Shown here: positions 1 through 55,429 of the stretch, piece after piece
How positions within the stretch are numbered: the first letter of the stretch is position 1
How the letters are laid out: every line of letters begins with the position of its first letter
Source of the DNA: Straminergon stramineum
Taxonomy: Eukaryota; Streptophyta; Bryopsida; Hypnales; Calliergonaceae
Reading direction: 5' to 3'
NCBI GenBank assembly: GCA_963920665.1
Contig: OY987269.1
Span: 22,012,501 to 22,076,500, forward strand
DNA: 64,000 nt
Position numbers and translations under genes: made by a program
The notes under the pieces: generated by a model
What the model was told of the DNA's origin: nothing
The model's database searches: none
Seen by the model: only the letters and a program-made list of their open reading frames with translations

Positions 1-1
1 A

Positions 2-73
2 TATGTAATTACACTAGCATCAAGGGACATTTCAATTGGAGATGAATTGTATGCACACTATTATGTCAATTGA
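2..73 (+). CDS. C-terminal end of SET-domain gene of element A (partial)
   Basis: The last 23 codons and TGA stop of a gene that begins before the window. The frame reads through ASRDISIGDELYAHYYVN, which aligns with the C-terminus of the SET gene of element B (39122-39193, ending ALRDILVGEELYACYNVN). In SET domains this is the end of the fold, where a GEEL-x-x-x-Y motif supplies the late tyrosine of the active site. The stop is at the same place in both copies and is followed by related DNA, so it is a true gene end. The partial sequence alone would not be recognisable; the call rests on the alignment with element B. Confidence 0.8.
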   Translation, partial: YVITLASRDISIGDELYAHYYVN

Positions 74-3400: not shown

Positions 3401-4195
3401 CCAACAGAGATGTGTGATGAAGAGTTTCACGTGTGGTTTCCCAAGGCAGTGGTACATGCAATGGAAGTTGGGAATGAAGAAGTAGACGAAGACGTGAGGG
3501 CTCTAATATTACCTCCATCAGATCGAGCCAAATCATATCGTTCCATGTATGCATTTGGGAACCACATTCGTGTTCGAAGCTCCGAGAAGCAGTTAACAAC
3601 AATGGACTCAGGAGTAGCCACAACCTTTCGACAACTTTGTCGAGCGGGTGTCAAGGATAGAAACATGAAGGCCTCAGAGTTAGAGTACGTTGGGTGGGTG
3701 GAGGAAATCATATCTGTAGACTATGGCCAATTTGAGGTAGTGGTCCTCTATTGCAATTGGGTGGTAGCCAATACAAAGGGTGATGGAGCCACCATGAAGC
3801 GCGATGAGTATGGATTCACCAGTGTGAACTTTGAAAGATTGATCCCATACTTAGCACAGTCATTTGCCTTTCCACTTCACATTGAACAAGTATTTTTTAC
3901 GCCAGACAAGACAGAGCAAGGATGGGAAGTTGTACTCCGAAAGGAACCAAGAGGTGTTCGATTATTCTCCGAACATCATGGACCACTTGAAGTGGAATGC
4001 ATATCTTTGGGGAAGACAACAAATTTTGATGGACTACAAGCCACAGGCCTATTTGAAGACCTCATACCAAAGGCACCCATTTTGTGTGATGCAGTGGAAG
4101 TACAACCCGATGTAGTTGCAGTTGCATTGCAACATCTTAGAGAAGACAACATAGAGGTAGATGACCTACAATGCTCAAATGAAGAGAGTGAGTGA
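420..4195 (+). pseudogene. tnpD: tnpD-type CACTA transposase of element A, three exons, two premature stops
   Basis: DDE-type transposase that would cut and join the element's ends in the nucleus. Exons are 420-1970, 2174-3072 and 3319-4195, joined by GTAAGC..CAG and GTAAGG..TAG introns; 1108 residues if read through. The transposase core (tnp2, Transposase_21) fills roughly residues 160-540 and shows LALDGVNPFQ (a conserved acidic-site motif of the family), LPPWL near 323, and DLPYWK joined across intron 1 to a LDVMHCEKN motif. DUF4218 lies around 690-750 (GPVHTRWMYPIERYLKTLKG) and DUF4216 around 950-1030 (VVLYCNWV, EQVFF, KEPRG). In-frame TGA codons at 2420-2422 and 2834-2836 break exon 2; the second is CGA in element B. 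Exon 1 opens at a splice acceptor, so an upstream exon is implied, probably the CxC finger exon seen in element B. The family call is firm; the two breaks make this copy probably inactive. Confidence 0.9.
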
Positions 4196-4899: not shown

Positions 4900-5543
4900 T
4901 GGCCTACTCCCAAAAAAAATGACTACCAAAAAAGAAGTGATAGGAAAATATGATTGCCCCAAAAAATGACTTCAAAATATGACTCAAGCAAAAATATGAT
5001 TGCCAAACAAAATGACTGCAAAATATAACTCAAGCAAAAATATGACTACCAAAAAAATTGACTACAAAATATAATTTAGGCATAAATATGACTGCCAAAA
5101 AAAAATGACTACAAAGTATAACTCAGGCAAAAATATGACTGCCAAAAAAATTGACTACAAAGTATAACTAAAGCAAAAATATGACTGCCAAATATAACTC
5201 AAGCTAAAATATGACTATGTACTCTCCAAACATGTTCCCCGCCCAAATTTTCCTTGAGCTGCCCCCCCAAAAAAAAACTAACAATCATGAAAATATGATT
5301 GCAAAATATGACTGAAATAAAAATATGACTACAAATATGACTAGACGTTCCTTGAGGATGTTCTCAACTATTCCCTATGAAGTATTTTGGTGTTCCCAAT
5401 GGGCGTATACTATACGCTTGTGAAGTATAAATGCAAAATATGACTGTCAGTCATATTTGTAGTCATTTTTTTTTCCCACCATATTGGCCTCCCAAAATAT
5501 CACTGGAATGAGTCACCAGTCATCCCCATTCATATTTTCTGAG
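4900..5543. repeat. Right subterminal repeats of element A
   Basis: Dense, roughly 25-45 bp spaced repeats of the type AAATATGACT(G/A)CC and ACTACAAAATATGACT, mostly in direct orientation. In CACTA elements such subterminal motifs are the binding sites of the TNPA-type protein. The same word dominates both ends of element B. Confidence 0.8.
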
Positions 5544-5570
5544 TCATAAAATACTTGTTTTCTTGTAGTG
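5543..5570. repeat. Right terminal inverted repeat of element A
   Basis: The 28 bp inward from 5570, read on the minus strand, begin CACTACAAGAAAAC and end TTTTATGAC. They differ from the element B ends at only two positions. Confidence 0.9.
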
Positions 5571-20679: not shown

Positions 20680-20682
20680 AAA
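20680..20682. repeat. Left target-site duplication (AAA) of element B
   Basis: AAA directly before the left end; AAA directly follows the right end at 44406-44408. Three bp is the normal CACTA duplication length, but an A-rich flank makes the match weak evidence on its own. Confidence 0.7.
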
Positions 20683-20710
20683 CACTACAAGAAAACTAGT
20701 GTTTTATGAC
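20683..20710. repeat. Left terminal inverted repeat of element B
   Basis: 28 bp starting CACTACAAGAAAACTAGTG and ending TTTTATGAC; one mismatch to the right end (44378-44405). Confidence 0.92.
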
Positions 20711-21500
20711 TGCAAAAAGTGATTGCAATGAGTCAAAAAATATGAAAATATGACTCACACAGAAATTACTGTAGATGACGTGCAACATGACTGGGTCTAG
20801 TCATTACTAACTAGTCGCTTTGGACATGAGTCATATTTGTAGTCATCGTATTTGGGGGGTATAATTAGCCATATTTTGCCAATGTGGCGTATATGTTGAC
20901 TACTTTTGGAGACTTGACTTTCTCTTGAGCTGCCTGGGCAAAGAAAAAAAATCTACGTGGCATATGACTGCTTGTAGTCATATTTTTTGATGATGTGGCA
21001 TATGACTACATTGAGTCATTTTTCCTTAGATGTGGTATATGACTATGTGTAGTCATATTTTAAGGGTGACGTGGATTGTGACTGCATTGTGTCATTTTTC
21101 TTTTGACATGGTATATGACTATGTGTAGTCATATTTTCAGATGGTGTAGAATGTGACCGTATTGAGTCATTTTTCCTTTGACGTGGTATATGACTATGTG
21201 TGGTCATATTTTTAGATGATGTGGAATGTGACTATTATGAGTCATGTTTTTGACGTGGCAAACGACTATATGTAGTCATATTTTTGGATGACATGAAATG
21301 TGACTAGAATGAGCCATCTTATCCTTCACGAGACATATGACTATGTGCACTCATTTTTTAATAGATGACAAAAATGACTTCCGTGAGTCATTTTTTGAGG
21401 TACAATGGAAAAAGACTCTTCATAGTCATATTCCTTGTTCCTCTAAAGAATGACAACCACTAGTCATTTTGTAGTTCATGTGGGACATGACTACTAAGAG
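20703..21500. repeat. Left subterminal array of ATGACT-N6-AGTCAT palindromes
   Basis: About fifteen copies of an inverted pair with a 6-bp spacer, for example ATGACTATGTGTAGTCAT, spaced some 30-60 bp apart, with variants in which one arm has drifted. Strong copies (TATGACTATGTGTAGTCATA) alternate with weaker ones (TGTGACTGCATTGTGTCA). These are the expected binding sites of a TNPA-type protein. Confidence 0.85.
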
Positions 21501-22020
21501 TCATTTATTTCAAATGATGAGACCCTGCCCAACGAATGTCATTTTAAAATTTCATAATTGAATGCAGTTAGATTATTCTAAGCGTTGTTAGCACACTATC
21601 ACGTTTCTGATGTTTCTGTAATCACCATGTTACTTCAAGTAGTCATATTCATGTTCATTTGTATTTTACACTAGAACTCAATCAAATGATATTTCACATG
21701 ACTATACCTAGTCACACTCTTCTCATTTTCATGTGCCATTTGTGACTACCATAAGTGACACGTACAATATCTTCAATTACAAATACCTAGTACCTTCTCC
21801 ATGCATTTCAAATATATATGACAATTTGCTAACATATTCTACATATGATTTTTTGGCTCCTAAAATCACCCACATGTACATGACTTCCAAGATGCAATTT
21901 CATGGCATGTATTACTCAAATTAAAAACAAGCTTGAAATTCACTCACTTAGTAAATACATATATGCACACATCTAACCTTATAATGGATTGTGCACTTCA
22001 CTACTTCATGGCTTCATTCA
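21501..22020. other. Transition between subterminal array and TNPA-like gene
   Basis: AT-rich with a few isolated TGACT/AGTCA words; would be the 3' flank of the minus-strand gene. No other feature seen. Confidence 0.5.
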
Positions 22021-25000
22021 TTACATTGAAGGAGCCAATGCCTCCATGGGCCACTTCGTCACAGACTTCAAGGCATTGCCCAAGCGCACTACTAGAGGGT
22101 CATCATTGTTGTTGCCTTCATATAAAAGAACCCCTTCCGATCCTGCAATGACGGAGGTTATTGTGATGGACACGTTGCCTTCCTCAATGAGCCGCCCATG
22201 AAGTGTACCTCCTGCAAGATTGACTATCTCTCCATATGCAAGTACATTTTCTTCAGCCTTCTTGTCATCATCCATGTCAAATACTTTTACCTTTGTTCCT
22301 ATGGCCAAAGGTAGAGCGCTTCCTTTCATCAAGATGCTAATACCCTCAACCATCTTCGTTCTACCTTTTGCAACCTGCATATATAGTTTCAACATTGATA
22401 TTGAATGAACAAGTAATGAGGCTTTGCCTTAAAAAATTCATAGCAATATAAACCATGTGTTCAAATACGTACCAACTATGATGCATTCAATGCTTGACCG
22501 ATCCTCTTGTCCAAAAGTGTCACACAATACTCAATATCAGAAGGGTTGCGGCTTAAAGCTTGAAAAGGTTCTATAACACTTTTCAAAAAATTATCATTCA
22601 CCACAACCGGATCCCATGGGGCAATGTTCAACACGTTCATGATTGGTGATTGAGTAGTTGCACCCGAATCACAGTCTACTTGAAGAACACGGCCTAGGCC
22701 ATGGCTTGGATTTGGAATCATACTAAACAAATCATGGAGATCTCTGATAGCTCCACCAGCCTCCCTCCCCCACAAAAAACACCACTTCATACGTGTTCCA
22801 ACAACAAGGAATTTAGCCACTACTTGGAGAAGGGCCTCTTCAAGTGGAGCCCATATCCCGACATCAAAATGAGCATTCAACATGGTTAAAAATGCCTCAC
22901 AATGAGCCCTTTTCTTGATTTTTACCTTAAATTCTTTGTCATAATGGGTTGTGGCATCTGGCCCCCACTCCTAATTGTCTTGCAATGGACGAATGTCACA
23001 AACAAGACCTAGAACATTTAACACAAGGATCTTCGTCCGTAAATCATCTAAAACCTTCACTGGTGGGAACTTCAAGCTCCCTGAAGACTTCTTCTTCTTC
23101 TTCAAAGAATTGCCTCCTTTAGCGACCCTATTTGTCCCCTTCCTTCTTGTTGGTTCTTCCTCTATGACTTTTGAGTCTAATTGCCTTTGTTGTTCCTCAA
23201 ACCTTGCAGATCTACTCTACAAGCACATCAACAATTGACCATTAATTGGTACAGGATTTAACCATTGCTTAGGTTAACAAATGCAGAACAACTACATCCA
23301 TGATAAAATTCGTACGTGCACATGCCTTAGGGATGACTATGCTGGCTTATACATACATTTTTAGAGTAATTGTATATGCATTTTTTAGAATATGAGTTCC
23401 CCTATGTACAAGTTTCCAAATACAATATCCCATTGTCATATAAAACAAAATATGACTAGGCCTTGTTATGTACATTTAAATGTGACTAACTCCAATTATG
23501 TATTGTTACATACAACTTATGACTACATCTAGTTCTAGACAATGAAATATGACCAATCCTAGTTATATACAATGATATATGATTAGTCCTAGTTATGTAC
23601 AATGAAATATGACTAGTCCTAGTAATATACAATGAAATATGACTAGTCCTAGTTATATACTATGAAATATGACTAGTCCTAGTTACATACAATGAAATAT
23701 GACTAGTCCAACTTGTATACAATGAAATATCACTAGTCCTAGTTACATACAATGAAATATGACTAGTCCAACTTGTATACAATGAAATATCACTAGTCCT
23801 AGTTACATACAATGAAATATGACTAGTCCAACTTGTATATAATGAAATATCACTAGTCCTAGTTACATACAATGAAATATGACTAGTCCAACTTGTATAC
23901 AATGAAATATCACTAGTCCTAGTTACATACAATGAAATATGACTAGTCCAACTTGTATACAATGAAATATCACTAGTCCTAGTTACATACAATGAAATAT
24001 GACTAGTCCAACTTGTATACAATGAAATATCACTAGTCCTAGTTACATACAATGAAATATGACTAGTCCAACTTGTATACAATGAAATATCACTAGTCCT
24101 AGTTACATACAATGAAATATGACTAGTCCAACTTGTATACAATGAAATATCACTAGTCCTAGTTACATACAATGAAATATGACTAGTCCAACTTGTATAT
24201 AATGAAATATCACTAGTCCTAGTTACATACAATGAAATATGACTAGTCCAACTTGTATACAATGAAATATCACTAGTCCTAGTTACATACAATGAAATAT
24301 GACTAGTCCAACTTGTATACAATGAAATATCACTAGTCCTAGTTACATACAATGAAATATGACTAGTCCAACTTGTATAGAATGAAATATCACTAGTCCT
24401 AGTTACATACAATGAAATATGACTAGTCCTACTTGTATACAATGAAATATCACTAGTCCAACTTACATATAAGAAAATATGATTAGTCTTTGTAATATAC
24501 AATGACATAAAACTAGTCCTACTTATACACAACAAATTATGACTAGTCTCAATAATATACAATGAAATAAAACTAGCCTATATTACATACAAATAAAAAT
24601 GACTATGTGCACTTGACTTTCCAACATTCACAATGGACAATAGTCATTTTTGTAAACAAACAAGTCAATTACATCATACAATACTTAACAAACTGTAATT
24701 TGAAGCATTTCACTACCACACAACCTTTCAATAATACAAGCCCTGAGTATACTTATTCATGGCGAACACACCTTTGGGTCAGTCTTCCCTTTCTTCGTCT
24801 TCTCATAGACCTTCCCTATTATCGATACAACACGTTTGGATTGAGGGATTTGTTCTGCCAATAGTTTCTCTGCCTCCCCCTTTCTCTTCTTTGCACGTTC
24901 TCCATCCTTCCTTCCTTCGACTACAATTACTTCTTCTGCATTTGTTTGGGTTGTTGCTATTGTTTCTTTGCTCTGTTGCACATTCTCCAACTTCTTGGTG

Positions 25001-28295: not shown

Positions 28296-31200
28296 TGTCG
28301 CGAGCCGTAATCTTAGAAGTCACCATGTTAGTACTAAAAGAAGTATAAGTATATAGAATTTTTCAAAATTCTTAACAGGCAAAAAGGGTTAGAACCCTCT
28401 TAGCCTAAACATCTCACTAACACTGAACGGATGCTCCAGGTAATCCGTAACGGTACTCGAGACGGATCTGGATTCCGGAAACCCGGATAGCGACAGCCTA
28501 GTACCTAGACTTCCGGTCTAGAAATAGGGACCCGTTACGGGTGAACGGTCTGCTTTACGAACGGTCGGTATTTTGACGGGTACTTAACACCGCCACTGCC
28601 ATTTCCTCTTCCTCTTTTCCCACAACTGTTTTGTGCGCGCATAGCTGAGTGAAAGAGTGGTGAGTTAGTGCTCGCGTGAGAGGTAATAGTATCTTCAGAT
28701 TCCTGGATAGTTGAGATGGCGGAGGGAGATATCCGGAAGACTTTGGTCACCGGCCGGATGGTTTGTCCAACCATTCCGGAAAGGCTGAGAGACAGATCCC
28801 AGCTAGAGGATGACCTCAGTGAGATAGGGTGTGTCGGTTTGTTCATGTGGCCGTGGACCGTAAAGAACGACCGGATGATCCAAGAGTTGATAGTAGGTGC
28901 TTCCAACCAGTATGAGTTGACCGTGAGAGGAAGGCCTCAAACCTGGACTGATGACGTCTGGGCTAGAGTTTACGGATTTCCAAAGAAGGGATCTGGTTTA
29001 GCGTCACGGATAGACAAGTTTGCAGTCGGGAAGTTCAAGAATGCTGCCCATTCTAAGGAAGGGTATGCAATTAGTGACTGCCTGGACGCAAGGCAGAGGC
29101 ATGTACTAGAGTTCTTGATTCCCATCCTGTATCCGGAAAAGCCTACCCGGGTTACGGTTACGGTAGCAAACACCATATTTGGTGCATTTGAGGTAGACCA
29201 GTCAGTTGGGGCAAGGTGATTGGATCCGTAGTCGCCAAGCTTGCCGCCAACGTGGGAAAGGGGAAGACGAGCCCCATAGGGCCGTATCTTTTCCATTTGT
29301 ACCATCACACAGAACTTCTCAGCGATGCGGAGATGGTGGAGTACAACACTGGAGCGACGATCCTTCAATACAGATTGACGGAAGAAGTGACGGCAATGCA
29401 GCCGCCGTTGGAAGAGGAGGAGGATCCGGAGGAAGACAAGCAACCCCTGGAGCAGAGGCACCGAAAGTCCACGGATCCGACATCGCGGGGAAAACTTCCG
29501 GCTCAACAGAGGATCACGGAAGAAGAGGAAGGAAGCATATCCGGGTTCTTCAAAACCGGATTCAATTGGGTACTCCAAGCGCAAAAGTACCACGAGAGCC
29601 TCACGGATCTTCTCAGGAGGATAGGCCGCGAGCTAAAGACGGAACCGGAAGACATCCTCAACGCGCTGAAGAAACTTCCAAATCTGGAAGTCCTCGAGCG
29701 GAAGGATAAGCAGATCGTAGCCCTGGAGAAGGAGAAAGCGGATCTTCAGGCGAGACTCAGCTGGGCGCAAGGCGAGATGGTTGAAGTGAAGCAAAGGGAG
29801 AAGGAAGCCCTCCAGCTGTTGAAGAATTTATCCGGCTTGGTAGACAAGCCGGCCGATATGGTGATGAAGGCGGCTCTAACCCAGAGCCGGTTGACTGAGG
29901 AAGGGCACCTCACCAGATCCAAGGTCATCCGGATACTCGTGGACTTCTCCTCCTGGATGGAGCTCACACTTAAGGAGATGAGGCAACTGCTTGGACGGAT
30001 CGACCCCGACCGGGTAATGGACTTCTCCAACTTTTCGGAGATACATTTTGACACGGAGACACCCGTCAAGCTTAGCGCCTCGATGCCACTACCTTCGAAA
30101 CCAAAAGTTCCGCGGGAGAGTCTCCGGTACTCCACGGAACCTTTCTCCAAACAACTGGAGAAGACAATCCGGGGGAGCGTGAAGTCAGCACCCGAGTCTA
30201 GCAAGCAGCCGGATACAAGACGGGAGTTGGCGCCTCCAAAGGTTACGGTGTCTCCACCCGTCCCAATCTTCAACCATCCGGAAAAGGAGCCGCTGCCGAC
30301 ACCTCACACCCAGGCCCGTGGCCAGCTGATAGAGCGGATCGGGGGGTTGTTGAATCCGGCCCGCTCTCATCCGGAGGAGTTCGAACATATGGTGGAGGAG
30401 CAGCAACAACCAAGGAAGGAGATCGAGCCCATCGTGCTGGATGAGACATCTCCAGGCGAGGAGATTGAAAGGGGGATCACTCAGATTGAGAAATCTGAGG
30501 AGGAGGAATACCGGACCGGATCGGAGGATGAGGACGAGGAAGAAGCCGACTACTCTCCTCCGGAAATCCGGAAGATACAAACCCGAGCGGCATTACGGTC
30601 GACCCCCATGAAGGCGACCCCGAAGGCAACACCAAGGGCATCCCTGCGAACCCCAACGAGTCAAGGCAGGAGCAGCTAGAAGAAAGTGCGGAAGGCGAAG
30701 TAGTTAGGACTTTTCTTAGGCAGATAGGATCTTTGATTTTGAACCGGATCCGGATTTCCAAGTGTGGGACTGGGTTCCAGAATTGTAGGATCACACCTTT
30801 TCCGGATTTTTCGGGAAGGTTGTGAGTGGTCATCTGGATTTCCGGGTGGCCTTTTTGCCTTTTCGGCTTTGAGTTGTTTTGTGTTTTTAAGTGTGAGGCA
30901 GGTTGTTTGCCTCTCATTCCATCCTAGCATTATAGTTTGTATCTTGGCATCCTTTCTTTTAATCTGAGCCACCAAGTGGACCCTCAGGGATTGATCTGTT
31001 GTATATCCAACTTTCTTGTGTTTCCGTGTGAGTGAGTGAAGTGTGAGAGAGGAGGAGAAAAGGAGGAATCCGGATCTGAGGGGACTTGGGTTTGATTTGT
31101 GGGGAATGTTTGTGATAGAATCTAGACTAGTGACTTTGGTATTGAGCACGTGCCTTTAAACTACTGTAACGGGAATCCGATTAGGAGTGGTAGGGGCGCG

Positions 31201-31784
31201 AGTCCGGATTACCAAGGAGGGTTCCGTGTGGAGATAAGCAACCGCCAGTGGAAGAAAACCCCATACCACTTACCGGAAGGTTAGCCAAACCCTAGGATCA
31301 GTGTAGTAAATAAACTTACAACCCCCGGATTCGTTCCGGTCTGTGTTGGTTTGTCGTTGTAGTGGAAAAGACTTGTTACGGATCTGAGTGACCTACCTCC
31401 CAGGTTGGCCATCCGGAAGGTTGTGAGAGTGTTTCCGGTCTGATCTAGTGCAACATTTGGTCTAAGTGTGTGTTTGTAGTTTTGAGAGAGAAGAGAGACT
31501 GAGAAATACGAGTGGTGAGTCCCTACCCCTCTATACAATCAAAGGTGGACCCTCTGAGGGTAAAACAGAGGTATCAAAAACCAGTAATTGTGAGTGCAGT
31601 GGCGGATCCGGAATCCGGAAATAGAGTGAATCCGGATTGGATTCCGGAAAGAGAGAGCTTAAGTTGGTAGAACGGATAACCTAGGCTTGCAACAACATAT
31701 TAGAATCCCCTAGGACGATATTTCGAGTTAGTTTACACGTTTGGGTGTTGTAAATGGTATTTACCGCACGCTACGCGTACGACA
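28296..31784 (+). mobile_element. 3.5 kb element with LTR-type ends and one large frame, copy 1
   Basis: 3489 bp, starting TGTCGCGAGCCGTAATC and ending GCGTACGACA. It is flanked by perfect 5-bp duplications GTATG (28291-28295 and 31785-31789). TGTCG..CGACA ends with a 5-bp duplication are the hallmark of integrase-inserted LTR DNA, but no internal long repeats are seen: the start sequence does not recur near the right end. It therefore looks like a single very long LTR (solo LTR) carrying a gene, or an unknown element with that chemistry. One large gene (28716-30703) and many CCGGA words (ATCCGGA, TTCCGG) throughout. A second, inverted copy is at 48721-52207. It is inserted inside CACTA element B, hence younger than B's insertion or carried with it. 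Confidence 0.85.
28716..30703 (+). pseudogene. Gag-like/plant-mobile-type protein of the 3.5 kb element, copy 1 (frameshifted)
   Basis: Starts MAEGDIRKTLVTGRMV. A globular N-terminal half (about residues 1-220) with VGLFMWPWTVKND, RGRPQTWTDD and KTSPIGPYLFHLYHH motifs resembles the plant retroelement-associated domains often called putative plant transposon protein; there is no recognised catalytic motif. A coiled-coil-like, Lys/Glu-rich segment follows (about 320-380), then a proline-rich, acidic C-terminal part ending in basic KATPKATPRASLRTP repeats. Total about 662 residues. Relative to copy 2 (49798-51786), one G is missing at about 29192, shifting the frame, and a TAG at 30677-30679 cuts the last codons. 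Function unknown; a structural (Gag-like) or DNA/RNA-binding role is inference. Confidence 0.65.
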
Positions 31785-38301: not shown

Positions 38302-39193
38302 ATGTCTGAAGGGGAGTTGCAGAGTCTACAACATTTACGGTTATGGTAGGAAGAGGAGATTCAAGCAGATACCATGCGTCTAACAAAGTATCCATGTCTA
38401 TGCATGGAGTGTGCACGAGGGAAAGTACTCGATAGATGCACTATTCGAAAGCACCTTAGAAGTAGAAGAAGGGACCCAGTTTTTACAGCCTCTATCCTGG
38501 TAAGAAATTCGGAAGAACCACTTCTTGATTCTGGTAGTAATCCGCATTTGCGTTTAGATAGCCTCACTCTTCATATGAATATTTGGATGATATGTGTAGG
38601 CTTTGTGGAGACCCTATGTAGAAGCCGCATGTATGGCATCGCTACAGAAATTTTTAAGAGAGAAACCATCTTCAGCACATGACACGTTGAAAGGAGTATG
38701 TAGAAGAGTTTTAGCTTTGGAAAAGTGGAGGTCAAACGTGTTTGATGGACAATGGTGTCATGGGCCTATTCCAAAGCTCACACATTTTTCCTATTGGAAT
38801 AGAATGTGGGAAGTGAGGGTATCAAACTTTCCTTTCATGGGTTGGGGTCTTTTTTCACTCCAATCCGCAAGGAAGGGTGAGGAATTAATTCCCTTTGTAG
38901 GACTGCAATATACGTTTGCGGAATATAAAACTTTGAAGACAAAACGGCCTCGCATGAAGTCATATGTGATGCAAGTTGAGCTAGACATGTACATAGATGG
39001 AGATGTAGTGAAGGGAAATGTTGCCGGCTCTATTAATAGTTCCATAGGTCGTGAGGAAGTAGGGAATGTGTTGTGGGAGTTCCGCATGTTGCCTAAACCA
39101 TGGAACACTTTGGAATGGGGATATGTAATGACACTAGCATTAAGGGACATTTTGGTTGGAGAAGAATTGTATGCATGCTACAATGTCAATTGA
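38302..39193 (+). CDS. CxC-finger and SET-domain protein carried by CACTA element B
   Basis: Predicted lysine methyltransferase-like protein. ATG 38302 (or 38374; a TAG at 38347-38349 lies between) opens a first exon to 38499; GTAAGA donor at 38500 and GTGTAG acceptor at 38598-38599 join it in frame to 38600-39193. Counted from 38374 the product is 239 residues. Residues 8-33 have cysteines in a C-x-C-x2-C arrangement and a TIRKHL histidine, a finger like the N-terminus of CACTA transposases. Residues about 114-237 form a SET domain: GWGLF (the GxG motif), KGEELIPFVG, then GNVAGSINSS in place of the GNxARFINHSC motif, and ALRDILVGEELYACYN at the end. The NHSC core is altered (INSSIG), so activity is doubtful. 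Element A retains the same C-terminus, so the gene is a stable family component. No post-SET cysteines follow. Confidence 0.75.
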
Positions 39194-39625: not shown

Positions 39626-42600
39626 GATGACTATACTCCTCTTAACCTCCATTCTCGTTAACAAAGAAGAGTTTGAGAAGAGACTCCAGAACGACAACCT
39701 TCTCCATATACTAGAGAAGTGGAGGTGCTTCGTATGGTGGCAGAGTGCTTCAACAGATATGACAATATAAATATCAATGGGCAAGGAATAGAGAATATTG
39801 AAATTGGACCAATTGAGGATGCACCAATTGAAGATCTTGGCATGGTGGATCTTTCATCAGAGCAAGGACATGGCAATAGTGATGCGGCAATGGATGAAAG
39901 GCATGATTCAATGGAAAGAGAAGGGTCTTCTACAAACATAGAGGACCCTATGGGTGTAGACGTGGACCTCCTCTTACAAGAAGCTCAAACCCCACTTTAT
40001 GCAAGAAGTACTTCCAACCGTTTGACCTCCACCCTCATGCTACTAGTCAATTGTACTACATTTGGTGTTTCAAACACCTTTGTTGACGAGTTGTTGAAGT
40101 TGTTGAAGGAGACAATATTACCGAAGGACAACTCACTTCCCAAATCATTTTATGAAGCCAAAAGTATGTTGATGAAGTTGGGGTTGTCCTATAATTCCAT
40201 ACACGCTTGTAGAGATGGATGTTGCTTGTTTCGAAAAGAATTGGAGGATGCAACTGAGTGTTCGGTTTGCCACAAATCTTGGTATGTATAAAACTCCACC
40301 ACTATAGCAGTGAAAGTATTGAGGCACTTTCCATTGATTCCCCATTTGAAAAGAATGTATAGTTGCACACAACTGGCGAAGCTCATGAAGTGGTATGTAG
40401 GCGGGAAAAGCAAAGACAAGGTCAAGAGATCCGTAGTGGATTCAAGGGCCTGGGATCATGTTAATAACAAATGGACATTGTTTGCAAAAGAGGAGCACAA
40501 TGTTAGACTAGGCCTTGCATTGGATGGTGTGAATCCATTTCAAAACCAAAGTTTGAGCCATTCTATGTGGCCAGTGGTGATGCTGAACTACAATCTCCCT
40601 CCATGGTTGGTGACCAAATTTTTTTTTATGATGCTCACACTAATCATACCAGGAAAAAAAAGTGTGACAGATAAGAACATCAATGTGTACCTTGCACCAT
40701 TAATTGAAGAGCTGCAGATGCTATGTGAAGGGGTTGATTGCTTGGATGGTTCACGCAAAAATTGTGAAGATGAAGCATTCAAGCTTCAAGGCATTCTAAT
40801 GTGGACAGTGAATGATTTTCCTGCATATGGATTAATTTCTGGCCAAGTGAAAAAAGGATATAGGGCATGCCCTATATGTGGACCTAATATAGTGACTCGT
40901 CGCTCAAAAGCATTGAAGAAAAATGTTTACCTTGGGCATAGACGGTACTTACCAATGACCCACCAGTGGAGACAACAAAGGGGCACATTTGATGGTCAAG
41001 TGGATTTAAGACCTCCACCAAGAAGAATGAGTGGTTGAGAGCAACTTCGTTATGCTGAAGACCGAGAATAGTGGATGAAGAAGGCTTCTATAAATGAAGT
41101 AGAACAAGTTGCAGATCTTGTGCACGAGCATGGAGTGAAGAGGAGGACATGTCTATATGACTTGCCTTATTGGAAAGTGAGTGTATATGTGGTTTGGATG
41201 TTGTAGGCATCTTAAAGGGTTTGGTGGTCATATACGGAAATGAAAGACACTATATGTACAAGTATAGACATGGAAACTAGAAAACAATGACTAGACATAG
41301 TCATATAAGCTGCAATATAGTGACTGTGTTCAGTTGTATGCATAGAATGACTCCATGTAGTCATAATTCCATGTGTGATACATGATTTCTAACAAGCCAA
41401 AGTGATTGTGCAGGATCTTTTGATTAGACATACATTGGACGTTATGCATTGTGAGAAGAATATTGCTGACAATATTTTGAAAACGTTAAGTAGAGAGAAG
41501 GACACGCTTGAGGTCCGCTTGGACATGAAGGAGGTTGTTATATGCAAACATCTGTGGCCCGTACCTGGGAAAAAACCTGGCAGTGCCATATTACCTCATT
41601 CATCATATGCTTTGACCAAAGAGGAGCGAAAAGTCTTTGCAAACGAAATCCAATCATTGCAAACCCCCACCCAATATGTGGGTCAACTAAAAAAACGTGT
41701 ACACATGAATGGGAGCATGAAGGGCTTAAAATCGCATGACTTTCATGTCCTCATGCAACAAGTATTGCCACTATGTGTTCGCACTGTGCTAACGAAGGAA
41801 GTGCACACCGCAATAATCATGCTGAGTCGTGTATTCAGGAGGATATGCGGTAAGACCATTGATCCCAATGGTATAGTAGAGCTAAGGTCGGACATGGCAA
41901 TAGCATTGTACATGCTAGAAAAAGAATTCCCACCATCCTTCTTTGACATCATGAGCCATCTAGTTGTCCACCTTGTAGAAGAGGTAGAAATTTGTGGACC
42001 TGTGCACACATGTTGGATGTATCCAATTGAAAGGTATTTGAAAACACTTAAAGGATATGTCTGCAATCGTGCTCGACCGGAGGGGAGCATGGAAGTAGGC
42101 TACACTATAGTTGAAGCACTGGGATTTTCCACTGAGTATATGCAAGAATACATGGTGACCACCCGAAGAGTGTGGGATGACAAAGAAGATCCTTCAATGT
42201 ATGACAAGATTTTAGAAGGTAGTAGACGCAAAAGGCATCTCTCAGTCGAGCTTAGACAATGGATCCATGAGTTCGTGGTGAACAACGCAGCACCGTTAGA
42301 AGATTGGAGGAGGTAAGGTCCTCTGATAAAGCGGAGTATTGTTTGTAGTACCTCGCCACCACAACAACCTAAGCCATACCGGATGAGTATTGGTGTATTC
42401 AATGATGATTGCATTTAGTAATGTCTTTGCATTCATGACTGTGATTGGTAGTGAAATTCCTTCTATGACTACAACTAGTGATGTAGTTGCATGGATGAGA
42501 GAAGGAAGTCATGGAGTTGCATCTTGAAAAGAATTGACACATTCAAGTATTGTATGATGTAGGAGACACGAGGAGGACATGTCCTCTCGAGAATGAGAGC

Positions 42601-43439
42601 GTCAACAATATAGGCGTAAAAAACGAAAGAGTCGAATAGTGTACCCAACAGAGATGTGCCAAGAAGAGTTTCACGCTTGGTTTCCTAAAGCAATGGTACA
42701 TGCCATAGAAGTTGGGACTGAACAAGTGGATGAAGACATGAGGACTCTAATGTTACCTCCATCAGATAGAGCCAAGTCATATCGTTCCATGTATGCATTT
42801 GGAAACCACTGGCGTGCTCGCAGCTCTGAAAAACAATTGACGACAATGGACTCTGGAGTAGCTACAACCTTTCAACAACTCTGTCGAGCAAGCATCAAGG
42901 ATAGGAACTTGAAGGCCTCAGAGTTGGAGTATGTGGGATGGGTGGAGGAAATCTTATCTATAGACTATGGGCACTTTGAAGTAGTGGTGCTCTACTGCAA
43001 TTGGGTGGTTGCAAACATGAAGAGTGATGGGGTCACTATGAAGCGTGATGAGTATGGATTCACTAGTGTCAATTTTGACAAATTGATTCCATATTTTGCA
43101 CAATCGTTTGCCCTCCCTCTCCACGTTGAACAAGTCTTTTTTACATCCGACAAGGCCAAGCATGGATGGGAAGTTGTACTCCGCAAAGAACCCAGGGGTG
43201 TTCGATCATTCTCCAAACATGAAGCATCATTTGAAGTAGAGTGCATATCCCTGGGTAAGACAACTGATTTTCATGGACTTGAAGCCATGGGCTTGCATGA
43301 AGACCTCATACCGAAAGCACCCATCTTATATGATGTAGTGGAAGTTGAGCCCAATGTAGTTGTGACTGCATTGCAACGTCTGAGACAAGAAGACATAGAA
43401 GCAAATGACGTACAATACTCTAATGAAGATTATAATTGA
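39626..43439 (+). pseudogene. tnpD: tnpD-type CACTA transposase of element B, six premature stops
   Basis: Same gene as 420-4195, with exons of exactly the same lengths: 39626-41176, 41414-42312 and 42563-43439 (1551, 899 and 877 bp). The introns have donors GTGAGT and GTAAGG. tnp2 core with LALDGVNPFQ and LPPWL, DLPYWK joined to LDVMHCEKN, DUF4218 with GPVHTCWMYPIERY, and DUF4216 with VVLYCNWV and EQVFF. In-frame stops at 39659, 39674, 40289, 41036, 41069 and 42594 (first bases); the one at 41036 is CGA in element A, a C-to-T change. Exon 2 is intact here but broken in A. Inactive as it stands; if the element moved recently it must have used transposase from another copy. Confidence 0.9.
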
Positions 43440-44149
43440 GTCCCCAATCATGGCTACAAGTAGTGTAAATGAAATTGTCTTTCATATTTGAATTTGAATT
43501 TTGAATATAGCATTATCTTTAGTACATCACATAGAAACACACCATGTAACCATGTTGGTCTTTGTAGGAAAAGATATTTTGAAATGGATAGCATTCATCA
43601 TACAACATATTAAGCACTGACTCTACCACTGCACTCTCTTACAAGATTGACCATTTGTTCTTGACCTAATATTTATGTGAAAGAATAAATCCTTTATGTA
43701 ATGAAAACAAAGTCTATGTTTGAAACACTACTTTGGAAGACTGTCTCTATAACCAAAAGTGTATGTGACCCTCAAAACCAAAGCACTATAAGAAATCAAA
43801 AAATGTTTCACATTCATTTGGAGACCCTTCACCAATCCCTTCTTACAAGATGATCCTAATATGAACCCATCTATTGTCTCCTACCATTAATTGATTTTTT
43901 TTTTAATTCACTTGTTACCCCTATGAGTAATGTAAGTTAATGAATTGAAATATGAACATGTGCCACTTAAATGTATTGGACACCAGTTTTGTTATAAGCA
44001 AAACATACAATAGAAAAAAAAAACCTTCTGTTGATAGAAAGAAAAGAAAGTGATGCATACACCCCAAGGGATGGTCCCTATGGCCTGAATACAAGAAGGC
44101 CATTATAGATTGCCCACCTTTTCTATGGTTTGCCTACAAAAAAAAGAGA
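43440..44149. other. 3' non-coding DNA of element B
   Basis: AT-rich flank after the transposase stop; nothing recognised. Confidence 0.5.
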
Positions 44150-44345
44150 CAATTAAAAAGATGTGACTACAGAATATGACTGAAGCAAAAATATGACTAC
44201 AAAATATGACTGAAGCATAAGTATAGCTACAAAATATGAGTGAAGCATAAATATGACTACAAAATATGACTGAAGCATAAATATGACTGAAGCATAAATA
44301 TGACTGAAGCATAAATATGACTGAAGCATAAATATGACTGTGAGT
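44150..44345. repeat. Right subterminal repeats of element B
   Basis: Direct repeats of AAATATGACTGAAGCAT and AAATATGACTAC, about 10 ATGACT words in 190 bp, spaced 18-30 bp. All in one orientation, in contrast to the inverted pairs at the left end. Confidence 0.88.
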
Positions 44346-44377
44346 AGTTGCCAGTCATCTCTAGTCATATTTTCATA

Positions 44378-44405
44378 GTCATAAAACACTGGTTTTCTTG
44401 TAGTG
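44378..44405. repeat. Right terminal inverted repeat of element B
   Basis: 28 bp that, read on the minus strand, begin CACTACAAGAAAACCAGTG; followed by the AAA duplication at 44406-44408. Confidence 0.92.
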
Positions 44406-44408
44406 AAA

Positions 44409-48720: not shown

Positions 48721-51700
48721 TGTCATATGCGTAGCGTGCGGTAAATACCATTTACAACACCCAAACGTGTAAACTAACTTGAAATATCGTCCCAGGGGAT
48801 TCTAGTATGTTGTTGCAAGCCTAGGTTATCCGTTCTACCAACTTAAGCTCTCACTTTCCGGAATCCAATCCGGATTCACTCTGTTTCCGAATTCCGGATC
48901 CGTTACTTCACTCACCAACACTGGTTTTTGGTACCTCTGTTTTACCCTCAGAGGGTCCGCCTTTGATTGTATAGAGGGGTAGGGACGCACCACTCGTATT
49001 TCTCACTCTTTCTTCTCTCTCAAAACCACAAAACACACACTTAGACCAACTGCTGTGCTGGATTGACTGGAAACACTCTCACAACCTTCCGGATGGCCAA
49101 CCCGGAAAGCAGGTCACACAGATCCGTAACAAGCCTTCTCCACTACAACGACAGACCAACAGAAACCGGAACTTAGATGGGGATTGTAAGTTGTTCACTA
49201 GACAGATCCTAGGGTTTGGCTGACTTTCCGGTAAGTGATATGGGGTTTCTTCCACTGGCGGTTGCTTATCTCCGCACGGAACCCTCCTTGGCATTCCGGA
49301 CTTGCACCCACACCACTCCTAATCAGATTCCCGTTCCAGGAGTTTAAAGGCACGTGCTCAAGACCAAATTCACTAGTCTAGACTACGGAACAAACGTTCC
49401 ACTCAACTTAGCTCCAGTTCTCCTCAGATCCGGATTCCTCCTTTCCTCCTCCTCAATTACACTTCACACATTGACAAGGAAACATAAGAAAGCTAGATAT
49501 ACAACAGATCAATCCCTGAGGGTCCACTTGGTGGCTCAGATTAAAATAAGGATGACAAAATACAAACTATAACGCTAGGATGGAATGAGAGGCAACAAAC
49601 CTGCCTCACACTTAAAACCACAAAACATTCAAAGCCCAAAAGGCCAAAAAGGCACCCGGAAATCCAGGTGACCACTCACAAATTTCCCAAGAAATCCGGG
49701 AAAGGTGAGATCCTACAATTCCGGAACCTGGTCCCACACTTGGAAATCCGGATCCGGTTCAAAATCAAAGATCCTATCTGCCTAAGAAAAGTCCTAACTA
49801 CTTCGCCTTCCGCGCTTTCTTCTGGCTGCTCCCACCTTGACTCGTTGGGGTTCGCAGGGATGCCCTTGGTGTTGCCTTCGGGGTCGCCTTCATGGGGGTC
49901 GACCGTAATGCCACCCGGGTTTGTATCTTCCGGATTTCCGGAGGAGAGTAGTCGGCTTCTTCCTCGTCCTCGTCCTCCGATCCGGTTCGGTATTCTTCCT
50001 CCTCAGATTTCTCAATTTGAGTGATCCCCCTTTCAATCTCCTCGCCTGGAGATGTCTCATCCAACACGATGGGCTCGATCTCCTTCCTTGGTTGCTGTTG
50101 CTCCTCCACCATATATTCGAACTCCTCTGGATGAGAGCGGGCCGGATTCAACAACCCCCCGATCCGCTCTATCAGTTGGCCATGGGCTTGGGTGTGAGGT
50201 GTCAGCAGCGACTCCTTTTCCGGAAGGTTGAAGACTGGGACGAGTGGAAACACCGTAACCTTTGGAGGCGCCAACTCCCGTCTTGTATCCGGCTGCGTGC
50301 TAGACTCGGGTGCTGACTTCACACTCCCCCGGATTGTCTTCTCCAGTTGTTTGGAGAAAGGTTCCGTGGAGTACCAGAGACTCTCCCGCGGAACTTCCGG
50401 TTTTGAAGGTAGCGGCATTGAGGCGCTGAGCTTGACGGGTGTCTCCGCGTCAAAATGTATCTCTCGAAAGTTGGAGAAGTCCATTACCCGGTCGGGGTCG
50501 ATCCGCCCAAGCAGTTGCCTCATCTCCTTCAATGTGAGCTCCATCCTTGAGGAGAAGTCCACGAGTATCCGGATGACCTTGGATCCGGTGAGGTGCCCTT
50601 CCTCGGTCAACCGGCTCTGATCTAGAGCCGCCTTCATCACCATGTCGGCCGGCTTGTCTACCAAGCCGGATAAATTCTTCAACAGTTGGAGGGCTTCCTT
50701 CTCCCTTTGCTTCACTTCAACCATCTCGCCTTGCGCCCAGTTGAGTCTCGCCTGAAGATCCGCTCTCTCTTTCTCTAGGGCTACGATTTGCTTGTCCTTC
50801 CGCTCGAGGACTTCCGGATTTGGAAGTTTCTTCAACGCGTCGAGGATGTCTTCCGGTTCCATCTTTAGCTCGTGGCCTATCCTCCTGAGAAGATCCGTGA
50901 GGCTCTCGTGGTACTCTTGCGCTTGGAGTACCCAGTTGAATCCGGTTTTGAAGAACCCGGATATGCTTCCTTCCTCTTCTTCTGAGATCCTTTGTTGAGC
51001 CGGAAGTTTTCCCCGCGATGTTGGATCCGTCGACTTCCGGTGCCTCCGCTCCAAGGGTTGCTCGTCTTCTTCCGGATCCTCGTCTTCTTCCACCGGCGGC
51101 TGCTCGGCTGTCACTTCTTCCGTCAATCCGTATTAAAGGATCGTCGCTCCAGTGTTGTACTCCACCATCTCCGCATTGCTGAGAAGTTCTGCGTGATGGT
51201 ATAGATGGAAAAGATATGGCCCTATGGGATTGGTCTTTCCCTTTCCCACGTTGGCGGCAAGCTTGGCGACTACGGATCCAATCACCTTGCCCCAACTGAC
51301 TGGTCTACCCTCAAATGCACCAAATATGGTGTTGGCTACCGTAACTATAACCCGGGTAGGCTTTTCTGGATATAGGATGGGAATCAAGAACTCTAATACA
51401 TGCCTCTGCCTTGCATCCAGGCAGTCACTAATTGCATACCCTTCCTTAGAATGCGTAGCGTTCTTGAACTTCCTGACTGTAAACTTGTTTGTCCATGACG
51501 CTAAACCGGATCCCTTCTTTGGAAATCCGTAAACTTTAGCCCAGATGTCATCAGTCCAGGTTTGAGGCCTTCCTCTCACGGTCAACTCATACTAGTTGGA
51601 AGCACCTACTATCAACTCCTGGATCATCCAGTCGTTCTTTACGGTCCACGGCCGCATGAACAGACCGACACACCCTATCTTACTAAGGTCATCCTCTAGT

Positions 51701-52207
51701 TAGGATCTGTCTCTCAGCCTTTCCGGAATGGTTGGACAAACCATCTGGCCGGTGACCAAAGTCTTCCGGATATCTCCCTCCGCCATCTCAACTATTCAGA
51801 AATCTGAAGATACTATCACCTCTCACGCAAGCACTAACTCACCACTCTTTCACTCAGCTATGCGCGCACAAAACAGTTGTGGAAAAAGAGGAAGAGGAAA
51901 TGGCAGTGGCGGGGTTAAGTACCCGTCAAAATACCGACCGTTTGTAAAGCAGACCGTTCACCCGTAACGGGTCCCTATTTCTAGACTGGAAGTCTAGGTA
52001 CTAGGCTGTCGCTATCCGGGTTTCCGGAATCTGGATCCGTCCTGGGTACCGTTACGGATTACCTGGAGCATCCGTTCAGTGTTAGTGAGATGTTTAGGCT
52101 AAGAGGGTTCTAATCCTTTTTGCTTGTTAAGAATTTTGAAAAAATTCTATATACTTATACTCCCTTACATACTAACATGGTTACTTTTAAGATTACGGCT
52201 CGCGACA
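48721..52207 (-). mobile_element. 3.5 kb element with LTR-type ends, copy 2 (inverted)
   Basis: 3487 bp, reverse orientation of 28296-31784 and similar along its whole length. On the minus strand it starts TGTCGCGAGCCGTAATC (at 52207) and ends GCATATGACA (at 48721). It is flanked by perfect 5-bp duplications GTGCT (48716-48720 and 52208-52212), different from those of copy 1, so the two are independent insertions and the ends are certain. Again no long internal repeats, and one gene (49798-51786). Confidence 0.85.
49798..51786 (-). pseudogene. Gag-like/plant-mobile-type protein of the 3.5 kb element, copy 2 (nonsense codons)
   Basis: 1989 bp, 663 codons in a single frame from ATG at 51786 to TAG at 49798, with no frameshift. 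Three stops interrupt it: TAA at about 51704, TAG at about 51590 and TAA at about 51135. Copy 1 has glutamine codons (CAG, CAG, CAA) at these places, so all can be C-to-T changes. Its C-terminal part (49798-51126) is fully open and encodes the coiled-coil, proline-rich, acidic and basic segments described for copy 1. The full-length frame length (662 residues) is best judged from this copy. Confidence 0.65.
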
Positions 52208-52594: not shown

Positions 52595-55429
52595 TCAATT
52601 AGCATTATACGCAGCCAAACTTGCATTGATAACATCGACTTGAGCAAACAGGATTTTTAGAACACACTCTATGGTGTCTTTCTTCACCCTTGACTTCCAT
52701 GCCGTCATCAAAGAATTCGTTTCCTCCCACACCGGATTCTGGGTGTCATTGACTTTCCAACACAATCCTTTGGCGGAATCCCACCCAATATAGGATTCTT
52801 GAATAATCCGCTCTCGTGATGTGGGCCGAAAGTATTGAATGAGCACACAATTAGGATGCTCCGGGTTTGTGAAAGGATCAGACAAGGCTCTGGCAATCCA
52901 TACAAGCTTGGTATCACCATCAACAGGTCGAATGGCGATGAAGTACCCTTCAAAAAGATCACATGCCACTCGAAAAGATGGCAATGGACGATTGCGAAGT
53001 TGCCCCAAGAAGGCATCATCCTCAGCAAACTCCTCACGAACCTCACCATCATCATCAAGTTCATCCTCCTCCGTTGTTTCCACTCGAGAAGAAGGCCAAA
53101 AGCTATCTACCAATGCAACAGAAGGTTCGATGGATTCCTTCAAGACCGCATTCACCGCCCGCCAATAGAACACCAAATGCTCGAATCGTCTCCTATACTC
53201 ACCACTTCCATCTTCATCGCATAATGACTCCCAATACTTGATGAACCCACATATTCCCTTGTAAATATCATCCACGCTCCGCATTGGAAGGTATACAATA
53301 GGAAGTGGCTCCCCATCAGGCCATAGACTCCTCCCTTCGGAGTCCTCTCGCCATAATTTTATCCCTCCTACTTCCTCAGGTAGCCAATCACTATCCGTGC
53401 AGTATTTCTTGTACTTCATGACTGGAACCCCCACAGAGTTGAGATAAAATTTGAAATGTTGTGCCTTGGTATGGCCAACAAGTGCATCTTCCCCTTCCAG
53501 AATCAAGCCTTCTATGAAGGCTTTGAAATCTAGCACTTCTTCAATTAGGTGAGGAATTGTGGGCACTGAATCCACATCCATGAAGGACTTCATAAGAGAT
53601 GGGATGGTGGGGAAGTTCTCTTTTTTCAACTGCATACTCCACCTTCCAAACAGTGCGTTGATGTCATCATGTGTGTGACCAACCAACATGAAACTAACGT
53701 ACACCTCATGAAATATTTTCTTAGCAACAAGAAGGGACCAAAATGCAAACACAAATCTATTCTTATTGTCTCCTGTTGCATTGTCCATTTGAACGTTCAA
53801 CACCGGAGGAAGGATAGTTGCCGGAATTGCGACTTCGGGCGGTGGCCGAAGTGATGATTTGCAAATGTCTGCTCCTTGTAGCACTGCTTGAAAAAGAGGA
53901 GCAAAGCCCGAACTAGCAAACAATTCACGGGATGAGTACTTTGGAGGCAGTTCAACATCCCGTAACAACTTCGCTAATGACCCCACTATGTAGTTTGAGT
54001 CATGAAGAAAGATGTCAAGACCGTAATGTGCATAACGCACATCCCCATGCCCGTGAGCAATCATACCCGTAACTGAAATCGGTAGCTTCATTAGTCCATC
54101 AAGTTGCTTACTCTTGTGTGAGAACACAAGAGAAGCAGTTTTTGCATGATCCATTTTGTCATGCATGATTGTCAAGCATTCGTGAGGGTATGCACTAGAC
54201 CTATACCGGTTTGCATAGTAGTGATCTCGATGTGCTCGAGCTATGGCCAAATGTTTCTCTAAAATGTGGGTCCATTTCTGTTGTAACCCAACAGCTACGA
54301 TTCTTTTTAGAGTTTGCAATCTATCACACTTAGAACAACGTGCAAAATTATCTCCAGGCTTCTTGGCACTATACTCAGGGAAGTTCAATTTCTTGATCTT
54401 GCTTATGCTTGAAGCCGACACTTCTTTCAACTCAAACATAGCATTCACTGCGTTAACCTCAGGAATAGTCTCCTTCCATTTGAAGGTGGCCGGCAAAACC
54501 ATGGAAACCACCTTCTCCCTAGTTGGAAGAGTGTGTGTATGATGTGGCATATGGTCTGCGGACTTTTCAAGCACGCACTTCAATGTCGCGGTCGCTTGTG
54601 ATGTGTGCATTCGAGGCTTCTACATGCCCAAATTATCGTGAGCATGAGCTTGTTCTCCTTTAGCAGCGTACCCTTGAAAACGATGGAAGGTGGATTCCGG
54701 GACCCCTGAAATATGTCTCCACGCGGCCAAACAAACATCAATACCTTCTATAGTGACCACCCTCTTCCCTTAAGAGTCACGATGGACCTGCCTATGAACG
54801 TCCAACTTCATGTGGTATCGGAACTCAAAACTTGAGTTATGGTACATGCATTCACGAAAAGCCCGAATCTTCTCCCTCGAAAAAGGTTGCACATAGTTGT
54901 TCGAGCAACAGACTTTGCTCAATATTGAATTGATGGACTCTTGGGTGAGCAATTCCTTCGACTTCATACAAGCTTGAGGAGGAGGATTCCTAATCGAGCT
55001 TGTGTATGGTTTGGCCCATGAAGAAGATGGTTGCAATAGTCTGACTTGTCGACAGTTGTGGTTGTCACAAAGTTCGTGATCACAGAGGCTAGCCCCGTTC
55101 AAGTACACCTGCTGAATGGGCCATGCACGGAGAGAATACCTCCAATCCTTTAGAACATCTTCGATGTGCAAAGACTTTGAAATCTAGACAGCAACAAAAG
55201 CATCTCCTAAGGGACCATCACAACCTTACACTAAGTCGGAGTTCACGTTGTGAACTATTCCCTCTGCCATTGGTCGACCAATGGCATTTAGGAGGGTGAA
55301 AACCTTTGTGCTCCAAAGACATCATGGGATGCCTTCGTAGTTAGGAATCTCTAGAGTCACTTCAGGAACATCTTCAACGTCCCCTTCATCGGAGGAGTAC
55401 TCCCGTATTGGATCAACTAAAACATCCAT
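52595..55429 (-). pseudogene. DUF7869-type RNase H-fold (transposase-like) gene with five stops
   Basis: A single 945-codon frame from ATG 55429 to 52595, broken by TGA (about 55325), TAA (about 55230), TAG (about 55184), TAA (about 54768) and TAG (about 54625). The frame is otherwise continuous with no indels; the last 671 codons are open. The middle part has a CSKCDRL knuckle, HDKMDHAKT, then VQMDNATGDNKNRFVFAF and VGHTHDDINALFGRW. The D..D-N-x(n)-NKN and GHTHEDID signature is that of the eukaryotic DUF7869 family (name from memory), which has an RNase H-like, transposase-like layout. The part before it (VCLAAWRHISGVPESTFHRF) is also typical of that family. Other members are found in mobile or multi-copy contexts, so this is probably a transposon gene; enzymatic role unproven. 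Confidence 0.7.

Follow-up and report, generated by a model that had tools for sequence, protein, structure and literature searches.

In Phytophthora, HarbingerS and MuDR transposons are known that contain SET methyltransferase genes (Kojima and Jurka 2014, as given in the consulted part of PMC12730594). The element described here, a transposon of Straminergon stramineum that we term element B, resembles them in belonging to a DNA transposon family with a SET-domain gene, whereas the transposase superfamilies and the hosts are different. In fungi, DNA transposons, some of them EnSpm, carry TET/JBP genes (same part of PMC12730594); like element B these include CACTA-type elements with an epigenetic cargo, which in their case is proposed to counter silencing, but that cargo is a dioxygenase acting on methylcytosine and not a SET domain. 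Several accessory genes are carried by the giant EnSpm elements of red algae, and in Ectocarpus a ParB-like/DNA-methyltransferase gene forms part of a Sola1 element (PMC12477816, consulted in part). These too are large DNA transposons that carry additional genes, and for some of them a modification of their own DNA is predicted, though the consulted part of PMC12477816 names no SET domain for either. In maize En/Spm the tnpA and tnpD transcripts are alternatively spliced (PMC2613891, consulted in part); the features in common with element B, so far as that part describes them, are the CACTA ends, the TNP2 transposase, a large ORF in the region of intron 1 and alternative splicing, the last being a prediction in B. 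In Spm the transposase ORF lies within the intron, with TNPA as the other product, whereas in B a SET frame precedes the catalytic exon. The anti-silencing proteins of VANDAL (MuDR) are also named in the consulted part of PMC12730594. They parallel what we propose for element B, namely a transposon protein set against the silencing of its own element, but in a different superfamily (MuDR). In Arabidopsis, VANDAL proteins act on the silencing of their own copies; to our knowledge, no SET domain occurs in these anti-silencing proteins.

At the level of titles and abstract openings, the literature yielded no CACTA element carrying SET, a mention in body text or a Repbase entry being possible. The earlier note on this DNA had remarked that it knew of no described CACTA family with such a cargo, but it had overlooked the SET cargo of other DNA-transposon superfamilies. 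What is unusual here is the CACTA layout, the SET frame of element B being flanked by a finger exon of transposase type on one side and the catalytic transposase exon on the other; on balance we favour a reading in which the finger can be spliced to either.

Element B and its companion element A

Element B is a CACTA transposon of 23.7 kb with both ends present (20683-44405) in the window, i.e. the whole stretch of 64,000 nucleotides that was analysed. Its left (20683-20711, plus strand) and right (44377-44405, minus strand) terminal inverted repeats start with CACTA and are identical at 28 of their 29 bases, with one mismatch. An exact 14-base sequence, CACTACAAGAAAAC, is found at 20683 (plus) and 44392-44405 (minus) and again in a second element, A, at 5557-5570 (minus). 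The triplet AAA at 20680-20682 is a candidate target-site duplication with the AAA at 44406-44408 on the right, a 3-bp match that counts for little in an A-rich flank. Both ends contain subterminal repeats. On the left these form an array detected by TRF (20955-21360) with TGACTA/AGTCAT motifs, which number 22 in 20683-21683 against a window mean of 2.2 per kb; on the right the repeats occupy 44164-44340, inside the end of the element, and 13 motif matches fall in 43406-44405.

The transposase of B is spread over a first catalytic exon (Transposase_21; 39626-41178, plus, end estimated), which is interrupted by five in-frame stops and lacks an AG directly upstream, a second exon (DUF4218; 41417-42313, plus, bounds approximate) and a third reading frame (DUF4216; 42597-43439, plus). 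The TNP2 transposase profile PF02992 scores 229 bits in B and 257 bits in A, and Pfam also detects DUF4218 in B and DUF4216 in both elements. A scan of seven frames gave TNP2, DUF4218 and DUF4216 as the transposase domains, none of them of the Harbinger type. No TNPA-type Pfam match was found in six minus-strand frames at 22-28 kb, and a search of Rfam gave no match.

The SET frame of B is open and lies between the element ends, upstream of the TNP2 transposase. The exon (38600-39193, plus, start predicted) runs to a stop codon, and its 38600-39190 stretch matches PF00856 with 31.1 bits (E 3.3e-7; cut-off 22.4). A GT...AG intron of 100 bases (38500-38599, plus), read from the sequence, is predicted to separate it from a predicted 126-base finger exon of CxCxxC...H type (38374-38499, plus) with a phase-0 GT donor; the spliced product of 239 residues (38374-38499 joined to 38600-39193) retains the SET match at 30.6 bits. 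This finger-SET gene model is a prediction from the DNA letters alone. A longer finger frame opens at ATG 38302 (38302-38349, plus), and because an in-frame TAG at 38347-38349 ends it, the intact finger-SET frame begins at ATG 38374. In P0008, P0012 and P0184, the relatives whose SET frame extends upstream, Q precedes R[PH]H in all three, which suggests that the SET acceptor used by the family may be situated 9 bases further downstream than our prediction for B. The proposal of the earlier note that 38374-39193 encodes a SET domain placed between the ends of B and ahead of its transposase is borne out.

It had likewise correctly placed the same SET C-terminus and stop in element A. There, positions 1-73 (plus) retain, in frame, the final 23 codons of the SET exon together with its stop, the remainder lying outside the window; positions 2-70 read YVITLASRDISIGDELYAHYYVN followed by the stop, and the equivalent in B is YVMTLALRDILVGEELYACYNVN, also followed by a stop. 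The stop is about 350 bases upstream of the first catalytic transposase exon of A (420-1970, plus, end estimated), which is free of stops and has TTACAG upstream, and the order from SET to transposase is the same as in B. The second transposase exon of A (2177-3073, plus, bounds approximate) is interrupted by stops at 2420-2422 and 2834-2836, and is followed by the DUF4216 frame (3314-4195, plus) and the right terminal inverted repeat (5542-5570, minus), which is identical at 27 of 29 bases to each end of B. Elements A and B are both decayed, and the argument rests on the family.

Several other features accompany these elements. A repeat of about 3.5 kb is nested inside B (28296-31784) and has a second, inverted copy at 48721-52207; the two consist of blocks that are 83-95% alike, the longest 94-95%, and the short direct repeat agtatgtg borders the nested copy. 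Also inside B is a 60-bp tandem array (23539-24605; 17.8 copies, 94% matches) with TGACTAG motifs that resemble the subterminal repeats. On the minus strand, at 22476-22967, B encodes a phosphatase domain resembling NIF/FCP1 (PF03031; 31.6 bits against a cut-off of 21.8), upstream of which LNVLGLV stands at the expected position of DxDxT, which we take to be the motif expected in such phosphatases; this frame is possibly a second cargo of element B. Elsewhere in the window, an open frame of 674 residues (52595-54619, minus) matches DUF7869 with 154.8 bits.

The SET fold and its altered motif

A protein search with the spliced product retrieved 22 relatives (48-79% identity) from 139 candidates, a SET domain being precomputed for 20, and a 17-row profile search extended this to 82 SET relatives among 2644 candidates. 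A structure model of one relative, P0003 (built from 55 rows, pLDDT 84.7), displays the SET fold, which is that of histone methyltransferases, and matches SETD8, ASH1L, EZH2 and MLL1. Its similarity to many SET enzymes is much the same, and it therefore gives no indication of a substrate. A model built for the exon of B itself (23 rows) was poor, with a pLDDT of 40.8, and was set aside.

The catalytic motif was compared in an alignment of B with 54 of the 82 relatives, the other 28, mostly short, being left out. In all 54 rows that have a residue at the H of the NH motif, this residue is not H but S (51 rows) or N (three rows), and the NHxCxPN signature is absent, no CxPN following the NH position in the rows shown. 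With NS or NN in place of NH in these rows of the family, SET activity is uncertain, and it is quite possible that the domain is a non-catalytic reader or scaffold, that is a pseudo-enzyme and not a methyltransferase. However, other parts of the site speak against such a loss, since each glycine of the GxG motif is present in 47 of 49 rows, the N of the SET core in 53 of 54 and the C-terminal Y in 48 of 49. Furthermore, PR-type SET domains such as that of PRDM9 are active despite lacking the classical NH motif. The changed motif may be older than the association with CACTA elements, as the most distant of the SET relatives, P0202 (32% identity), keeps GNVAGYINSS.

The finger exon and its predicted splicing

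The earlier note had assigned a cysteine finger to the SET gene. The finger is present, but it is of the type found at the N-terminus of the transposase and is not peculiar to the SET part. A search with the first catalytic exon of A returned 3447 matches among 7972 scored candidates, the best 120 of which were compared. A CxCxxC...H finger lies within the first 150 residues in 10 of these 120 listed relatives (of the 3447), and as all ten have a precomputed TNP2 domain, the finger is part of the transposase in these proteins. A profile built from the ten fingers scores 36.7 bits (E 3.5e-10) against the ORF at 38350-38679, the runner-up among 2043 six-frame ORFs reaching 8.8; exon 1 alone, KYPCLCMECARGKVLDRCTIRKHLRSRRRDPVF, scores 35.3 bits and the long form 40.8, against 12.7 for the best of 3000 shuffles. 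When each of the ten was left out in turn, exon 1 stayed at 32.8-37.1 bits. In single alignments the long form matches the N-terminus of P0085 with a score of 72, which none of 2000 shuffles reached, in an alignment that spans the in-frame TAG, and for the short finger exon the score was reached by 10 of 2000 shuffles with P0085 and by 2 of 2000 with P0060. The Pfam model Transpos_assoc (PF13963) gives 14.1-14.8 bits on the finger, below its cut-off of 27.7. A U-box assignment for exon 1 was rejected, as its 18.9 bits fall short of the cut-off of 21.4 and the transposase-finger profile scores higher. On the strength of the ten-finger profile, we regard the finger exon of B as a homologue of the finger at the N-terminus of TNP2 transposases.

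The donor of the finger exon (CTG|GTAAGA) is in phase 0, as are the starts of the SET exon and, after its TTACAG, of the transposase exon of A. In relatives whose catalytic exon starts with D[ED]Y[SAT]P, a Q directly precedes this start in seven of seven cases, while the residues upstream of that Q cannot be aligned across the seven, although P0024 and P0025 are mutually similar. More distant relatives with an SDEEW-type start have Q before the conserved block in 6 of 6 cases under a strict pattern and in 12 of 15 under a looser one; two of the three without it begin just inside the block. Judging from the protein letters, this Q may represent a CAG acceptor that was read through by the gene finder. 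The phases, as predicted from the sequence, would permit a junction of the finger with the SET exon as well as one with the catalytic transposase exon, and it is probable, though by no means assured, that the finger exon is common to SET and transposase by way of alternative splicing.

Alternatively, finger and SET might constitute a separate gene, in which the SET gene duplicated or captured the finger, the transposase starts without one and the two have no exon in common. This arrangement would accord with the stop codon that the SET exon has of its own in both A and B, and with the nearest transposase relatives, which are open upstream to a methionine and might hence start finger-less. We nevertheless consider it unlikely, given that the six frames of the window contain a single finger, no second one having been found in them, that the Q|DEY pattern of the seven relatives resembles an acceptor, and that the donor and both exon starts agree in phase.

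Association of SET with the CACTA lineage and its possible role

Five of the 82 SET relatives pair with listed transposase relatives by having the same source and an identical longest-contig size, on four contigs: P0145 with P0053 (2,846 bases, ena), P0165 with P0039 (23,147, jgi), P0170 with P0051 (3,705, lgn), and both P0167 and P0188 with P0049 (598,999, ena). On the transposase side this involves 4 of the 120 listed, which are 47-66% identical to A. Only the longest contig per cluster is given, so that location on the same contig is deduced from source and length. If the contigs are the same, SET and transposase must be close neighbours on those of 2,846 and 3,705 bases; on the contig of 598,999 bases they need not be. 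Jittering all SET lengths by 0.3-5% gave 0.34 pairs on average; of 5000 draws, 4 reached four pairs and none reached five. Two further coincidences of length were left uncounted: P0011 and P0051 at 3,705 bases, whose sources differ, and P0146 and P0027 at 1,825 bases, whose sources also differ and whose genes cannot both fit on a contig of that size. Across the five linked copies, SET and transposase identities correlate only loosely, with a Pearson coefficient of 0.64 and a Spearman coefficient of 0.44 (p 0.20), the pairs not being independent, and the agreement is worse when P0188 replaces P0167 for the 598,999-base contig. Scans of viral and prokaryote contigs gave 41 and 11 pattern matches, respectively, none of which was confirmed as a relative.

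The comparison of A with B points to an old association. Over three exon stretches of the transposases, dS is 0.72, 0.75 and 0.69 and dN/dS is 0.20, 0.13 and 0.16, with 5, 2 and 1 codons skipped, respectively. With a dS of about 0.7, the SET tail common to both elements predates a long separate evolution. The two are 76% identical over the first 195 aligned bases, which include the SET tail, 57-60% identical after the SET stop, and about 80% identical across much of the transposase exons. The 23 SET codons differ by two synonymous and eight other changes, giving a dN/dS of 1.14 with no constraint visible, although so short a stretch is too small to measure it.

The possibility that one element gained SET by chance, with A and B inheriting it as passive cargo, would fit the decay of B, the 23 codons and the nearest transposases, but it is very improbable in view of the 82 relatives, whose identity to B ranges over 32-87% (79 reach 45% or above, and 51 cover at least 77% of the core), the pairing with transposases so distant from A on four contigs, and the retention of the core N and the C-terminal Y. 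The nearest transposases referred to are P0023-P0031 (67-77% identity, the longest contig measuring 38,979 bases), none of which (0 of 9) is paired with SET by source and length; many copies may accordingly lack SET or have it in a short or broken form. The earlier claim that SET is a built-in part of this CACTA family is thus upheld by the shared tail, the dS and the five pairings, but not in the sense of universal presence. That SET is a long-standing part of the CACTA lineage we regard as highly probable.

Hosts silence transposons via DNA and histone methylation. In the mechanism that we envisage, one transcription unit would yield two proteins, finger-SET and finger-transposase, and the common finger would guide the SET protein to the DNA of the element itself. 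Once there, the SET protein would alter or read histone methylation, and through the methylation so changed or read the element would evade silencing. Such an anti-silencing role of the SET protein is putative and we advance it tentatively. Similarly speculative is the full two-product switch, in which a finger joined to a SET domain with a rewired site might home to the transposon's own ends such that its copies stay expressed.

If this is true, the joining of SET to a transposase finger would represent a chromatin effector that occurs naturally and supplies its own address. It would illustrate how selfish DNA may resist being silenced in its own copies. The proposal of an exon common to SET and transposase is directly testable, and the altered NH motif raises the separate question of the function of the SET domain.
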